DNA of 64,000 bases from Chloroflexota bacterium (GTDB lineage: Bacteria; Chloroflexota; Anaerolineae; Anaerolineales; DRMV01): positions 1 to 64,000 of the forward strand of contig DRMV01000032.1 in the NCBI GenBank assembly GCA_011322445.1, given 5' to 3'. Shown here piece after piece: positions 24,873 through 54,513 of the stretch (position 1 is the stretch's first letter; every line of letters begins with the position of its first letter). The notes under the pieces are model-generated. The model did no database searches and was not told the origin of the DNA. It saw only the letters and a program-made list of their open reading frames with translations. The position numbers and the translations under genes are program-made.

Positions 24873-25505
24873 TCAAGCGACCACTTCGCCCAGCGCGTCC
24901 AGCACGCTGGTGAGGCGGTCGTAGTCATCCCGCAAGAGGGTGATCAGGTGGCGGGTGGCCTGGGCCACCCATTCGGCGTCGTCGCCCGTTTCGGCGTGGG
25001 CCTGCCGCGCCTGGCGGAAGTGAACGGCCAGGAGTTCATCGGCGGGCACGTCGGCGGCGCGCAGGATGTGCCGGAAGTAGCCCAGCCGCCCGGCGCGGGT
25101 GAATTCGCGCACTTCGGCGGGCGAGCAGAGGTAGAGGTTCGCCAGGGTCAGCGGGGGGCGGGGCGGCAGCAGGTGCACAATGCGTCCCTCGGCCGTGCGG
25201 TAGCCCAGCGAAAGCACGCCGATTTCCACCGGCAGGTTGCGCTGGTGCTGGTCGGCGTGGATGCTGGGGGGCACTTCGGGGGCAATGGTCAACTGCCGCA
25301 CCAGGTTGTCGCCCGGCAGGCGGATTTCGGAGATGATGCCGAAAATCTCCGAGGCAGGCGCGGCGTCTTGTTCAGGCGCGGCGACGCGCACCAGCGCGCC
25401 GAAGGCCAGGCCGCTTTCCTGCAGTTGCGGCACCCGGCAGCCTACCAGGGAAGCGGTGGCGGAAGCCTCTAACACGCGTCCGACGAATTGCGGCGAGGCG
25501 GTCAT
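24873..25505 (-). CDS. conserved protein with a possible N-terminal HAS-barrel domain
   Basis: The N-terminal 90 residues (FVGRVLEAS, FGALVRVAAPE, IFGIISEIRL) resemble the HAS barrel found at the start of HerA-type ATPases and F-type ATPase subunits. Here no ATPase domain follows. The last 100 residues are helical (FTRAGRLGYFRHILRAAD, LITLLRDDYDRLTSVLDAL). GAGGTG precedes ATG 25505; GTG 25511 is possible. It is read together with the GH1 gene 9 nt downstream, but I see no functional link. Confidence in the domain is moderate. Confidence 0.65.
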   Translation of the reverse strand: MTASPQFVGRVLEASATASLVGCRVPQLQESGLAFGALVRVAAPEQDAAPASEIFGIISEIRLPGDNLVRQLTIAPEVPPSIHADQHQRNLPVEIGVLSLGYRTAEGRIVHLLPPRPPLTLANLYLCSPAEVREFTRAGRLGYFRHILRAADVPADELLAVHFRQARQAHAETGDDAEWVAQATRHLITLLRDDYDRLTSVLDALGEVVA

Positions 25506-25579
25506 AAGCACCTCACAATCAAGGGGGAATGCGAACCCACGGGAACCGCGGGGGGAACAGCCTCAACAAAGCAAGGGAA

Positions 25580-25740
25580 CTGTTCAGCCTTGGAAGGGAG
25601 AACTACAGATTTCACAGATTAGCACAGAAAACACGGAAATGCTCTTTGCGCCTTTTGCCTTCTGCGCGCTTTGGCGTTAACCTCTTGGCGTCCTGGCCTT
25701 CTTTGCGCTTCTGCGCGCTTATCGCAGGCAGGCTGAACAG
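25580..25740. repeat. 161-bp element with terminal inverted repeats (MITE-like), copy 1
   Basis: CTGTTCAGCCT at 25580-25590 is the exact inverted complement of AGGCTGAACAG at 25730-25740. Between them are CACAGATTAGCACAGA, then tracts such as TTTGCGCC, CTTTGGCG and CTTGGCG. The element ends 3 nt from the tmk stop codon. A second copy with the same order of parts lies at 53051-53255. There is no open reading frame of note. Confidence 0.65.
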
Positions 25741-25743
25741 GGG

Positions 25744-26379
25744 CTACTTCGCAGGGGAAGGCTGCGTCAGCCGTCTCAGCACCGCGGCGCGCACATCGGC
25801 CTGGACGGCTTCCCGCGGGCGGTGAGCAGGAATGCGCACCCAGCGTTGCGGCTCGGCAGCGGCCAGTTGGGCATACCCGGCCTGCACCCGGCGGTGGAAG
25901 GCCAGGGCTTCGGCATCGAGGCGGTTGCGGCGCGTCGGTGCAATGCGCGCCAGCCCGGCTTCCACCGGCAGGTCAAGCCACAGCGTCAGGTCGGGCCACA
26001 GGCCGCCGGTGGCATAGTCAATCAGGCGGCGCAGTTCGGCAACATCCTCACCGCGGCCATAGCCCTGATAGGCTAAAGTGGAATCGGCATAGCGGTCGCA
26101 AATCACGATTTTGCCCGCTTTGAGCGCCGGGGAGATGAGTTCTTCCACATGCTGGGCGCGAGAGGCCTGGAAGAGCAGCACCTCGGTGCGGGGGTGCATG
26201 GCCTGGTTGGTGCGGTTGAGCAATACCTGACGAATCTGGTCGCCGATGGGCGTACCCCCCGGTTCGCGCGTCAGCACGACGGTGTAACCCTGGCGTTCCA
26301 GAAATTCGGCCAGCAAGCGCGCCTGCGTGCTCTTGCCGCTACCTTCCGGCCCTTCAAAGGTGATGAACAGCCCCCCCAT
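25744..26379 (-). CDS. tmk: thymidylate kinase
   Basis: The enzyme phosphorylates dTMP to dTDP. FITFEGPEGSGKSTQARLL is the P-loop, VLTREPGGTPIGDQIR the DRX-type substrate motif, and DRYADSTLAYQGYGRG the next conserved block. The LID region is ARIAPTRRNRLDAE. The 211-residue length is normal. It starts 1 nt after the stop of the R3H ATPase gene, so the two are co-transcribed. The TIR element lies immediately downstream. Confidence 0.95.
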   Translation of the reverse strand: MGGLFITFEGPEGSGKSTQARLLAEFLERQGYTVVLTREPGGTPIGDQIRQVLLNRTNQAMHPRTEVLLFQASRAQHVEELISPALKAGKIVICDRYADSTLAYQGYGRGEDVAELRRLIDYATGGLWPDLTLWLDLPVEAGLARIAPTRRNRLDAEALAFHRRVQAGYAQLAAAEPQRWVRIPAHRPREAVQADVRAAVLRRLTQPSPAK

Positions 26380-35972: not shown

Positions 35973-36087
35973 GGGCGTCCCCGAGTGGGTCCGACGCGGC
36001 AACGCCCTCCGAACCGGGTCAGGTCCGAGAGGAAGCAGCCCTAAGGAGGTTCCGTTGGGTGCCGTCGGGTTGCCTGCTCGGGGGCTT
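35973..36087 (+). ncRNA. ffs: signal recognition particle RNA (small bacterial type)
   Basis: The conserved domain IV core GGTCAGGTCC-GAGA-GGAAGCAGCC is present, with an asymmetric loop and a four-base cap. Flanking arms pair: CCCCGAG with CTCGGGG at the ends, CCGACG with CCGTCGG, and GGAGG with CCTCC inside. The RNA guides Ffh to nascent membrane proteins. At about 115 nt it is the small 4.5S-type without an Alu domain. The apical tetraloop is GAGA rather than the usual GGAA. No clear terminator follows; the 150 nt after it hold nothing I recognise. Confidence 0.93.
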
Positions 36088-42417: not shown

Positions 42418-42444
42418 AGAACTCCTCGAAAACGTTGTCAGAGA

Positions 42445-43404
42445 TCAACTCAAAGCCGCGCGCACCGTGGTGTAGAGGGTTTCGGCGCGCAGGTCGGCCA
42501 GAGTGCGGCAGGGGGCTTTGAGGTGCTCGGCCAGCGCGCGAGCATAGCCCTGGTCAAATTCGGCGACTTCCATGTTGAGCACCAGGCTCTGAATGCCTTC
42601 GGCGGCAATCTGCTCGGCGATGGTGTAGGCTTCTTCCAGCGGCGGCACGTCAGGGTTGATAGCCACATTGGCCGCGCCGTCGGTGAGCACAATCAGCAGC
42701 GGACGGACGTCGGGATGCGCCACTTTTTCGCGCCGCAGCACTTCATAGGCCAGCAGCAACCCTGCCGAGAGCGGCGTTTTCCCGCCAATGGGGATGTTTT
42801 GCAGCGCCCGCGAGGCCAGGTCCACCGAATGGGTAGGCGGCAGCACCAGCGTGGCGCGGTTTTTCTGGAAAACGATCAGCCCCACCCGGTCACGGTGCTG
42901 GTAGGCATCGGTGAGCAGCGAGAAAATCGCCCCTTTCGTCGCGGCCATGCGCTCGGCCACCGCCATCGACCAGGAAGCATCGACCACGAAGAGAATGAGG
43001 TTGGCCGCCTTGCGGACGCGCACCTTTTCGCGCAGGTCGTGGGGTTTGAGGATGAGCGCGGGGGCGTCTGCGGGTGCGTGGGCACGGCGTTCCTGTTGGT
43101 ACGGCGCCGCCGCGCGCACGGTGGCATCGAAAGCAAGGTCGGTCACTTTGCCGCGGGGCACGCGCGCCCGAATGTAGCGCCCGCTTTTGCGGTCGGTGAG
43201 GGTTTGCGAGCGGCGACCGCTTTGGCGGCGGGTGCGGGCATCTTGCGGTGTGGTGAGGGTATGGGGCGTGAGCGCTGCTTGCTGAACGAGGCCGCTGCGC
43301 TGGCCGCCTTCCCACCAGCGCCCGTCGCCGGTCTGGAAGACCTCTTGCGGCGCGGCGCGCAGGCTGTCGGCGGCGGCAGGCTGCGCCCCGCCGTCGGCCG
43401 TCAC
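42445..43404 (-). CDS. VWA-domain protein, magnesium-chelatase D subunit-like
   Basis: The 319-residue protein has a charged variable region (1-125) and a von Willebrand factor A domain with an intact MIDAS (D-x-S-x-S in VVDASWSMA, then a Thr in GGKTPLS and Asp in VLTDGAANVA). The integrin-I domain and preceding linker match the C-terminal half of ChlD/BchD. It starts at GTG 43404, overlapping the ChlI-like stop by 4 nt. No chelatase large subunit is present nearby, so the metal and substrate are unknown. Confidence 0.85.
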   Translation of the reverse strand: MTADGGAQPAAADSLRAAPQEVFQTGDGRWWEGGQRSGLVQQAALTPHTLTTPQDARTRRQSGRRSQTLTDRKSGRYIRARVPRGKVTDLAFDATVRAAAPYQQERRAHAPADAPALILKPHDLREKVRVRKAANLILFVVDASWSMAVAERMAATKGAIFSLLTDAYQHRDRVGLIVFQKNRATLVLPPTHSVDLASRALQNIPIGGKTPLSAGLLLAYEVLRREKVAHPDVRPLLIVLTDGAANVAINPDVPPLEEAYTIAEQIAAEGIQSLVLNMEVAEFDQGYARALAEHLKAPCRTLADLRAETLYTTVRAALS

Positions 43405-52248: not shown

Positions 52249-53025
52249 TTATTCCCACCCCTGCAAGCGGAACGCCCGCACTGCCCAGTCGGCCAGGCGG
52301 GGGGCGAAGCACTGCGCCCAATAGAGCAAGCGCGCCTGAAAGGGCACGATGACCTCGGCGCGGTTGCGCTGCACCGCCCGCACGATGGCCTGCGCCACGG
52401 CTTCCGGCGGAATCTTGGCCGAGATCCACGGCACTTTGAGGTCGGCAATCATCGGCGTATCTACCCGCCCGGGGAACACGGTGCTGACGCCCACGCCGGT
52501 GCCGTGGAGTTCCTGCCGCAGCACATCGCCAAAGCCGCTGAGGGCAAACTTGGCCGCGACGTAAGGAGCATCGGGGGGCAGCCCCTTTTTGCCATCCATG
52601 GAAGTGACCAGCACGATATGGCCTTCGCCCCGCGCCAGCAGGTGCGGCAGGGCTTCCAGCACCAGATACACCCCACCATAGAAGTTGACGGCCAGGGAAC
52701 GTTCCAGCAAATCGGGGGTGAGGTCGCGAATTGGGCTGCGGAGGTACACCCCGGCATTAGCCACCACGCCATCCAGGCGCCCAAAGTGCTCACGGGTGCG
52801 CGCCACCAGCGCGGCTACATCGGCGCGGCGGGTAACATCGGTGGGCACGGTCAGGGCTTCCCGGCCCAGGGCGCGCACCCGCGCGGCCACGACTTCCAGC
52901 GCTTCAGGACGGCGCGCGGCCAGCGCCACATGCGCCCCGACACGCGCGAAAGCCCGCGCTGCGGCAGCACCAATGCCGCCAGAAGCGCCGGTGATGATGA
53001 TGACACGGTCATGGAGATCTTTCAT
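52249..53025 (-). CDS. short-chain dehydrogenase/reductase
   Basis: The 258-residue protein is a classical SDR: TGASGGIGAAAARAF for NAD(P) binding, NAG in VVANAGVYL, Ser in VLVTSMDGKKG and the Y-x3-K pair in PYVAAKFAL. Arg residues after the first strand (AARRPEAL) suggest NADP. The 18-residue extension at the C-terminus (FAPRLADWAVRAFRLQGWE) is hydrophobic and resembles ketoacyl or sphinganine-type reductases. Substrate unknown. It faces the plsY gene tail to tail. Confidence 0.9.
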   Translation of the reverse strand: MKDLHDRVIIITGASGGIGAAAARAFARVGAHVALAARRPEALEVVAARVRALGREALTVPTDVTRRADVAALVARTREHFGRLDGVVANAGVYLRSPIRDLTPDLLERSLAVNFYGGVYLVLEALPHLLARGEGHIVLVTSMDGKKGLPPDAPYVAAKFALSGFGDVLRQELHGTGVGVSTVFPGRVDTPMIADLKVPWISAKIPPEAVAQAIVRAVQRNRAEVIVPFQARLLYWAQCFAPRLADWAVRAFRLQGWE

Positions 53026-53050
53026 CGCACCCTCATAGCAAGGAAAAACC

Positions 53051-53255
53051 GTAACTGCTCAGCCTCGGTAAGGAGAAACCACAGATTACGCAGAAAAACA
53101 TCCACCAATTGCACAGATTAGCACAGATTGGGAAAAAACGCTGAAAAGCCCAACGCTCCCGTCCGTTTCTTGGCGGCCTTGGCGCCCTAAAAATCCGCGG
53201 CCATCCGTTTTATCCGCGTGATTCGCGGCCTGTTTTTCCAGAGCTGAACAGTTAC
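53051..53255. repeat. 205-bp element with terminal inverted repeats (MITE-like), copy 2
   Basis: GTAACTGCTCAGC at the left and GCTGAACAGTTAC at the right pair with one mismatch. Inside, ACCACAGATT and CACAGATTAGCACAGATT are followed by CTTGGCGGCCTTGGCGCC. Parts and order match the element at 25580-25740. It lies in the 327-nt gap between the SDR and sulfotransferase genes; another ACCACAGATTGCACAGA and a short ACCGACTAACC tandem follow it up to 53335. Confidence 0.65.
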
Positions 53256-53352
53256 GAAAAACCACAGATTGCACAGACTCCGCAGAGCACCACCCACCAA
53301 TGGACTAACTAACCGACTAACCGACGAACCGCCTCATTGCCGCCCCTCCCTA

Positions 53353-54513
53353 TCAAAACGTGAAACCGTACATCTCGGCCACGCCGGCACACAGGCGGGC
53401 CAGGTCTTCCCGGCTCAGCCCCCACTGTTCCAGCGTGTATTTGTTCGGGCTGCGGTAAGCCCGCACGCGGGCGTCTTCGGCTTCCAGATAGCGCGCCAGC
53501 GCGGGCGGCATGGCGAGTTCCAGTTGCTCGTAAATGCGGTGCACCGTCTGGCGGTAATTTTGCGTCAGGTCGCGAAAGCCAACCCGCACATAACGGTTCG
53601 GGGGCAGGTCGGCCAGGTCTTCGTGTAAACGGCGATACCAGAGGCAATACACCTCAGCCAGGATACGGGCCTCCCGCCGCACATCGCCGGGGCAGCCGTT
53701 CATGCGCCAGTGGCCGTACCACAGCGCCACCGCCGAAGGGATGACTTCGGCCGGATGGCGCACCAGATGGATGAATTTGGCATCGGGGAAGGCGGCGCGC
53801 AGGTCGGGCATGGCCGAAGAGAAGGTGGGCGGTTTGCTCAGATGCCGCCCGCCGCCGTGCGCGTAGAGGTGACGCTGCAACATGCTGCGGTAGAAGGCCA
53901 TTTCCTGGCGGCGGCGCTTTGCGGGCACCCGGCGGGAATAATCGGCGTAATCGGCCAGCAGTTCCGGGAAAGGGAAGAACGCCAGCAGGTCGTAGCAGGC
54001 CGCCTGGTGCAGCAGCAGTTGGACGTCTTCCTCAGGCTGCAGAAAACTCAGGCGATGGACGCGAAAGTAATCGCGTGCGTTGGGCATCTGGCTCCAACGG
54101 GCTTCCAGACGCACCCAGCCACGCTGCAAAGGCTGCCCCAGCCGATCATCCAGCGCTTTTACCGCCCAGGCAAGTTTGCGCTGCACCACCGAGGGCGCCA
54201 GCAGGCTTTCCCACAAATCCATCGGCACGAACTGGGGGTCGCGCTGCAAGGTACGCATGAGCAAGGTGGTGCCGGAACGCTGGGTTGCGGCAATGAAAAC
54301 CGGCTCGCGCACTTCCTGCCGCCGAAAACCGGGGAAGAGCAGGCGGTCGGCTGCCCAGGCAAGGCGGTGCGCCGCCCCTAGCAGGGGGTAGAACAGCAGC
54401 ATTTGGGTAACGAGGAAACCCACGCGCTGCGGGCACAGCCGCCCGGGCGTGTTGCGAGAGCGGAAGAAACTATGGGAAAGCAAGCGCAGCATCAGGCGGG
54501 CGTTGAAGGTCAT
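53353..54513 (-). CDS. sulfotransferase family protein
   Basis: The 386-residue protein has the 5'-phosphosulfate loop PVFIAATQRSGTTLLMRTL near residue 72 and the 3'-phosphate-binding segment FIHLVRHPAEVIPSAVALW near residue 245. A C-terminal helix-rich tail ends with SREDLARLCAGVAEMYGF. It would transfer sulfate from PAPS to an unknown acceptor, producing PAP, the substrate of the BPNT enzyme at 39961-40971. GGAGG precedes the ATG. The uppP gene is 21 nt upstream. Confidence 0.88.
   Translation of the reverse strand: MTFNARLMLRLLSHSFFRSRNTPGRLCPQRVGFLVTQMLLFYPLLGAAHRLAWAADRLLFPGFRRQEVREPVFIAATQRSGTTLLMRTLQRDPQFVPMDLWESLLAPSVVQRKLAWAVKALDDRLGQPLQRGWVRLEARWSQMPNARDYFRVHRLSFLQPEEDVQLLLHQAACYDLLAFFPFPELLADYADYSRRVPAKRRRQEMAFYRSMLQRHLYAHGGGRHLSKPPTFSSAMPDLRAAFPDAKFIHLVRHPAEVIPSAVALWYGHWRMNGCPGDVRREARILAEVYCLWYRRLHEDLADLPPNRYVRVGFRDLTQNYRQTVHRIYEQLELAMPPALARYLEAEDARVRAYRSPNKYTLEQWGLSREDLARLCAGVAEMYGFTF

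Follow-up and report, generated by a model that had tools for sequence, protein, structure and literature searches.

The window, by which we mean the whole stretch of 64,000 nucleotides analysed here, belongs to a 2.63 Mb Anaerolineales genome in 53 contigs (G000) and carries two short elements, A and B, each flanked on both sides by minus-strand genes (Table 1). Neither element has an open reading frame of its own of at least 100 amino acids, and the frames listed across them merely run through from outside.

Table 1. Positions in the window of elements A and B, their parts, their neighbours and an empty site of the same family
Feature	Position	Strand	Remarks
ORF without Pfam match	24873..25511	-	other side of A
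Element A, eroded copy	25576..25744	+	left end GGAACTGTTCAGCC, right end GGCTGAACAGGGGC; interior with CACAGATT, CTTTGCGC and TTGGCG units; same site filled in G003
Thymidylate kinase gene	25744..26379	-	PF02223; stop codon abuts A
Empty site 2	42431..42451		filled in G003 (L141:298-512); joined flanks align through junction in window
Short-chain dehydrogenase gene	52249..53025	-	PF00106; start codon 25 bp from B
B left target-site duplication GAAAAACC	53043..53050	+	from sequence; scored 8/8 as L013
B left terminal inverted repeat GTAACTGCTCAGCC	53051..53064	+	
B interior	53065..53241	+	CRCAGATTN units 53080-53130; TTGGCG units 53170-53188; ATCCGYG-type units ~53193-53229
B right terminal inverted repeat AGCTGAACAGTTAC	53242..53255	-	
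B right target-site duplication GAAAAACC	53256..53263	+	
Solo 9-bp-unit module AACCACAGATTGCACAGACTCCGCAGAG	53260..53287	+	just outside B, overlaps target duplication; near-identical in sister species G003
Sulfotransferase-family gene	53353..54513	-	PF13469; end 97 bp from B

The initial annotation had described two copies of a MITE-like element with shared terminal inverted repeats, and both are indeed present: convergent pairs of CTGYTCAGC and GCTGARCAG with a spacing of 100-300 bp occur exactly twice in the window, at A and at B, whereas 300 dinucleotide-preserving shuffles of the window gave a mean of 0.003 such pairs, a maximum of one and never two. The inverted arms are 11 nt long and 100% matched in A (25580-25590 / 25730-25740), and 14 nt long and 93% matched in B (53050-53063 / 53243-53256). 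The full family end is 14 bp, GTAACTGYTCAGCC, so that B spans 53051-53255 and A, in which the outermost bases are degenerate, spans 25576-25744. The target duplication of B is a perfect 8 bp; around A there is none, one of the eight flanking bases being alike. The string CACAGATT occurs exactly five times in the window (once in A, three times in B and once directly adjoining B, at 53263), where shuffles lead one to expect 1.1.

It had also been proposed that A and B share an internal order of two modules. The common order is real, but it comes from 9-bp repeat units that follow one another and not from two fixed modules. In an alignment of 45 elements, namely those of no more than 300 bp with at least seven of eight duplicated target bases, the left-hand units read CRCAGATTN, the central ones CTTGGCGNC and the right-hand ones ATCCGYGNN, and there are frequent gaps of about 9 or of 18-20 columns, as would be expected if whole units had been lost or gained. 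The two arms are complementary except that CAGAT on the left stands opposite CGGAT on the right, which leads to A-C mismatches on the plus strand and G-U pairs on the minus strand. The 45 elements fold better than their shuffles (mean z -3.1 for the plus strand and -4.2 for the minus), the minus strand being the better one in 40 of them; with the ends trimmed, the means are -1.98 for the minus and -0.71 for the plus strand, with the minus better in 41 of 45. On the plus strand B reaches z -2.2, and A, at z -0.19, folds no better than its shuffles. Covariation is weak, with both sides changed in 3 of 21 consensus pairs and a covariation term of -0.45 in a later alignment of 30 of the 45 elements that left out the divergent ones, and for this reason we claim no RNA function. 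A search of the window from 25000 to 54000 against Rfam gave no family at A or B; elsewhere in the searched region, the gene for the bacterial small signal recognition particle RNA (Rfam RF00169) lies at 35983-36082 on the plus strand. Selection at the RNA level was considered and set aside on the weak covariation and the lack of an Rfam match at A or B, as was a built-in promoter or terminator, since sites resembling either are not more frequent than in shuffles.

The description of "two copies" holds for the window but not for the genome. Searching G000 for the terminal inverted repeats, as the annotation had advised, gave GTAWCTRYTCAGCC exactly at 10 places, with three one-mismatch places also lying in family members, and a total of about 10 loci. 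Three congeners have many more, with exact counts of 165 in G002, 216 in the sister species G003 and 68 in G004. Two genomes of another genus, G009 and G012, have 4 each, G001 and G005 have none, and the same string read backwards is absent from all seven genomes counted. As a DNA query, element B matched 8 of 61 genomes, its own included, the matches in G005 and G032 being weak. The family end together with the CACAGATT unit was found in one of 400 genomes sampled from the phylum, namely G000 itself, and in at least 80 stretches of a named-genome collection; among the matches listed, 70 are Anaerolineales MAG contigs and the other 10 (six Photorhabdus and one each from a Thermoplasmata archaeon, Bosea, a Rhodobacteraceae bacterium and Treponema) are taken for chance. 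Plasmid and phage collections held no match to element B, and viral contigs no instance of the end-plus-module pattern.

Some copies are young: pairs at different places are up to 98.7% identical, and the median best identity is 89.8% over the 52 elements, of 110, that have a match of nearly full length. A 154-bp subfamily of G003 (L139:1062-1215, L140:206-359, L146:321-474 and L149:351-504) is 97-99% identical, which suggests recent activity; its target duplications are 8/8 in L140 and 2-5 of 8 in L139, L146 and L149, and the flanks of L149 resemble the interior of element B.

Target-site duplications, which the annotation had named as something to look for, are found across the family and are of one length. 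After an earlier, first set of 53 end pairs had been scored, 110 distinct pairs of ends with a spacing of 100-500 bp were drawn from 264 loci fetched by similarity or end motif, and they are therefore no census; each distinct element with its 30-bp flanks was counted once, and those in which the flank on either side fell short of 30 bp were dropped. The 264-locus set leaves out 30 IS66 loci (L138, L159-L187) and 10 pattern loci with titles that are not Anaerolineales (L226, L229, L230, L235, L238, L242, L243, L260, L263, L274). Eight of eight bases are duplicated in 32 of the 110 pairs and seven of eight in 21, whereas mismatched flanks, taken from the left and right of different elements, reach 7/8 in 0.09% of cases and 8/8 never. 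At lengths other than eight there is a single perfect repeat, of 7 bp, and none of 5, 6, 9, 10 or 11 bp. Fewer than seven of eight bases are duplicated in the remaining 57 pairs, which counts against the explanation that we favour below. The elements measure 120-488 bp, mostly 180-250, and 92 of 110 are no longer than 300 bp.

Comparison with the sister species adds two empty sites. The joined flanks of L145:3053-3278 in G003, which has the duplication CGTATTTT, align through the junction with contig C53 of G000, where the element is absent, and a second such site lies in the window itself (Table 1). The duplication is 8/8 at the first site and 6/8 at the second, and at both the target octamer differs between the two species. 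The comparison of empty sites that had been proposed thus succeeded for the family but not for A and B, both of which occupy the same sites in G003, so that neither is itself a polymorphic insertion; the left end of B is replaced there by other sequence near a contig end. The open reading frame beside A forms its gene pair in 2 of 16 loci examined (G000 and G003), and the same is true of the dehydrogenase next to B in 1 of 6 (G000; the G003 contig ends too early). Since no other locus was found to have these neighbouring genes together, the recurrence of A and B in G003 only is a weak point of the comparison. These elements are short and multicopy, contain no transposase gene, and have terminal inverted repeats, a fixed-length target duplication, empty sites and, as set out below, ends shared with an autonomous element, which are the features of a MITE.

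A second MITE family came to light in the same loci and has no member in the window. It has the ends GTAATTACCTACC / GGTAGGTAATTAC in 38 end pairs of 100-400 bp (in L024, L070, L131, L139, L142, L218, L234, L236, L239, L273, L278, L301 and others), with 8-bp duplications of 8/8 in 24 of the 38 and 7/8 in 4. At L131:1596-1791 in G003 a member of this second family is nested in a copy of the first, with the 8-bp duplication GTTTTTTG, and the ortholog of the host copy on contig C39 of G000 is without the insertion. Two IS66 loci, L175 and L176, have the end GTAACTACCTACCC.

The annotation had asked for a full-length transposon with matching ends, and such elements exist elsewhere in the order but were not found in the six MITE carriers tested. 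A profile search with PF03050 found no IS66 transposase in G000, G002, G003, G004, G009 or G012, all of which are drafts. Among 201 genomes of the order 30 have a PF03050 match, 29 of them above the curated cut-off. Taking one best locus for each genome and not counting L138, the MITE end motif occurs with no more than one mismatch in 8 of 29 IS66 loci, and the reversed motif in none. In L162 (1505 bp) and L163 (1569 bp) the motif is exact at one end and has one mismatch at the other; L169, with a 7/8 duplication, differs from the motif by one base at each end, and L170, with an 8/8 duplication, by three. L162 and L163 contain single transposase open reading frames of 483 and 489 amino acids, which, like the 488-amino-acid frame of L170, pass the NCBIfam model NF033517 for IS66 family transposases. 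Neither L162 nor L163 has an 8-bp duplication of its own (3/8 and 0/8), and this slightly lowers our confidence in the explanation given below. In the loci examined no end pairs 0.7-4 kb apart have a duplication of at least 7/8. The sole IS66 locus of G001, L138, does not visibly match the MITE ends, and the exact motif is absent from that genome; L138 also has extra small open reading frames ahead of the transposase and other ends, and our impression is that it may be foreign to the G001 draft, perhaps a contaminating contig.

The MITE end motif is also on record in an element that has been seen to transpose. For ISDge4, of the ISBst12 group of IS66, the description in PMC12898284 gives GTGACTACTCAGCA and GTAACTGCTCAGCA as the ends and CCTCGATG as the direct repeat, which is eight letters long. 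The account in PMC11946415 describes IS66 ends as GTAAGCG, with 8-bp repeats; of this string only GTAA is common to the family ends, which again counts against our explanation. On the yardstick of 5'-GTAA ends together with 8-bp direct repeats, the family agrees with IS66. It thus shares the end motif GTAACTRYTCAGC and the 5'-GTAA terminus with ISBst12-group elements (ISDge4, L162, L163 and L169) and the 8-bp target duplication with ISDge4 and L169 (7/8 in the latter), but, unlike them, it has no transposase, is mostly no longer than 300 bp and has an unrelated interior. Beyond the ends, 92 MITEs compared with 30 IS66 loci of other genomes gave four short matches of 22-32 nt (E 0.001-0.005), and these marginal matches do not support the interior as an IS66 deletion product; by all appearances the interior is no IS66 sequence and consists of 9-bp units that form an imperfect hairpin.

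We consider it highly probable that A and B belong to one MITE family with IS66 (ISBst12-like) ends and a hairpin-repeat interior, mobilised by IS66 in trans. In this mechanism an IS66 transposase, which judging from the ends is most likely the mover, would recognise about 14-19 bp at each end and move the element in trans, every insertion duplicating 8 bp of target. The simplest account of the interior would be that IS66 ends came to enclose an already existing hairpin repeat of 9-bp units, as is probable, and that it then diversified by whole-unit loss and gain. Some congeners went through a burst of copies, and the helper transposase would have been lost from the carriers. As the six carriers show no IS66 transposase, the helper looks lost and mobilisation in trans is what we infer; with about 10 loci and no IS66 transposase found, the copies in G000 are probably immobile relics. 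The annotation's reading of a non-autonomous mobile element is therefore borne out by the duplications, the two empty sites, the high copy number in congeners and the matching IS66 ends in the order, there is no need to invoke its alternative, a mobile 3'-UTR module, and the combination that was to speak against it, no matching transposase ends together with conservation in distant relatives, was not what we found.

The most serious competitor concerns the mover, which might be another DDE transposase, not of IS66, whose insertions are likewise marked by 8-bp duplications and whose ends are similar by coincidence. The empty PF03050 search in the carriers and the unrelated interior would agree with this, and an 8-bp repeat is listed for a member of another family, ISPpa9 (IS6), in a table row of PMC3281130. 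Coincidence is, however, hard to square with the presence of the end motif in 8 of 29 IS66 loci against none for its reversed form, nor with its presence on ISDge4 (as described in PMC12898284), and we regard this alternative as unlikely. It is very unlikely that the elements are a conserved RNA or DNA structure, such as a terminator, an attenuator or a 3'-UTR module, and no transposon at all. In favour of such a structure, the genes beside A and B have the minus strand as their sense strand, and this strand folds better, even with the ends trimmed. Against it, there is little covariation, no Rfam family at A or B, no folding of the plus strand of A beyond shuffles and no excess of promoter- or terminator-like sites, and there are empty sites and target duplications.

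Less probable again is that these are palindromes of the REP/REPIN type, spread by a RAYT (IS200/IS605-like) transposase. The elements are imperfect intergenic palindromes with an interior of repeat units and fold beyond shuffles. REP/REPINs, however, are small palindromes not known to have a target duplication, and RAYT-type transposases are not known to leave one of 8 bp, so that 8-bp duplications beside terminal inverted repeats contradict this reading for the family that the repeats bound; for solo hairpins it may still apply. Chance inverted repeats in a GC-rich genome can be dismissed almost entirely. The window has only a mild excess of CTGYTCAGC with no more than one mismatch (52 against 38.8 expected, a count reached by 3 of 100 shuffles), yet the excess of convergent pairs and the family-wide duplications have already refuted this explanation.

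The CACAGATT units of the hairpin also occur without IS66 ends, both in G000 and in viral contigs. Among loci chosen by similarity or pattern, AACCRCAGAT starts lack an end motif within 45 bp upstream in 17 cases and have one in 8 in G000; the loci of G009 and G012 give 13 without and 8 with, and viral contigs 18 without and none with. Viral contigs contain the string AACCRCAGATTNCRCAGATTNCRCAGA in 12 stretches, none of which has an IS66 end in the segment examined, and they do not contain its reversed form; four of the 12 look near-duplicate, which leaves about eight. Solo arrays or hairpins of AACCRCAGATTNCRCAGATT units without IS66 ends are seen in the viral contigs L305, L307, L309 (which has several copies) and L310 and in L003, L007 and L051 of G000, and at L093 (G009) hairpin units arrayed head to tail, with a repeat about every 105 bp, take the place of a single hairpin. 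A CGCCAAG 9-mer pattern was uninformative, with 26 stretches in viral contigs against 30 for the reversed control. Hairpins of 9-bp units seem to be recurrent in bacterial intergenic DNA; we have come across neither a name nor a mechanism for them, and six unit strings had no match in the papers searched. It is possible, if somewhat doubtful, that the CACAGATT-type hairpin represents an interspersed repeat class, widespread in unrelated genomes but undescribed, that can spread by itself, of which the MITEs would represent a capture by IS66 ends. We are equally tentative about the corollary that a repeat family gained transposon ends and not that a transposon lost its middle.

As a kind, the MITE is known. 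MITEPsy1 and MITEPsy2 (PMC3189936) and MITEPye1 (PMC11578231) are, as far as these accounts describe them, also short and non-coding, with terminal inverted repeats and direct repeats, and are thought to be mobilised in trans, and MITEPye1 likewise forms a long stem-loop. They are tied to the ends of IS5-like (the assignment being uncertain), Tn3-family and IS1182 elements, whereas the present family is tied to IS66, and it differs from them in its interior of 9-bp units and in its far higher copy number in some congeners. From the accounts in PMC3733652 and PMC2817692, REP/REPIN sequences share with it a palindromic nature, an intergenic location and a high copy number, but REPs are palindromes of 20-40 bp, whereas the elements described here are bounded by transposon ends and accompanied by 8-bp duplications as a family. 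No description of MITEs with IS66 ends was found in the literature searched, which covered few subscription papers and did not extend to ISfinder, and a family with IS66 ends and a repeat-built interior seems not to have been described before.

The finding adds a MITE family with IS66 ends whose interior resembles no IS66 examined. The sister pair, with about 10 loci in one genome and more than 200 end motifs in the other, is a natural experiment in which one may follow the beginning of a MITE burst and its end after the helper is lost, and the presence of 9-bp hairpins inside known transposon ends provides one handle on how such hairpins spread.
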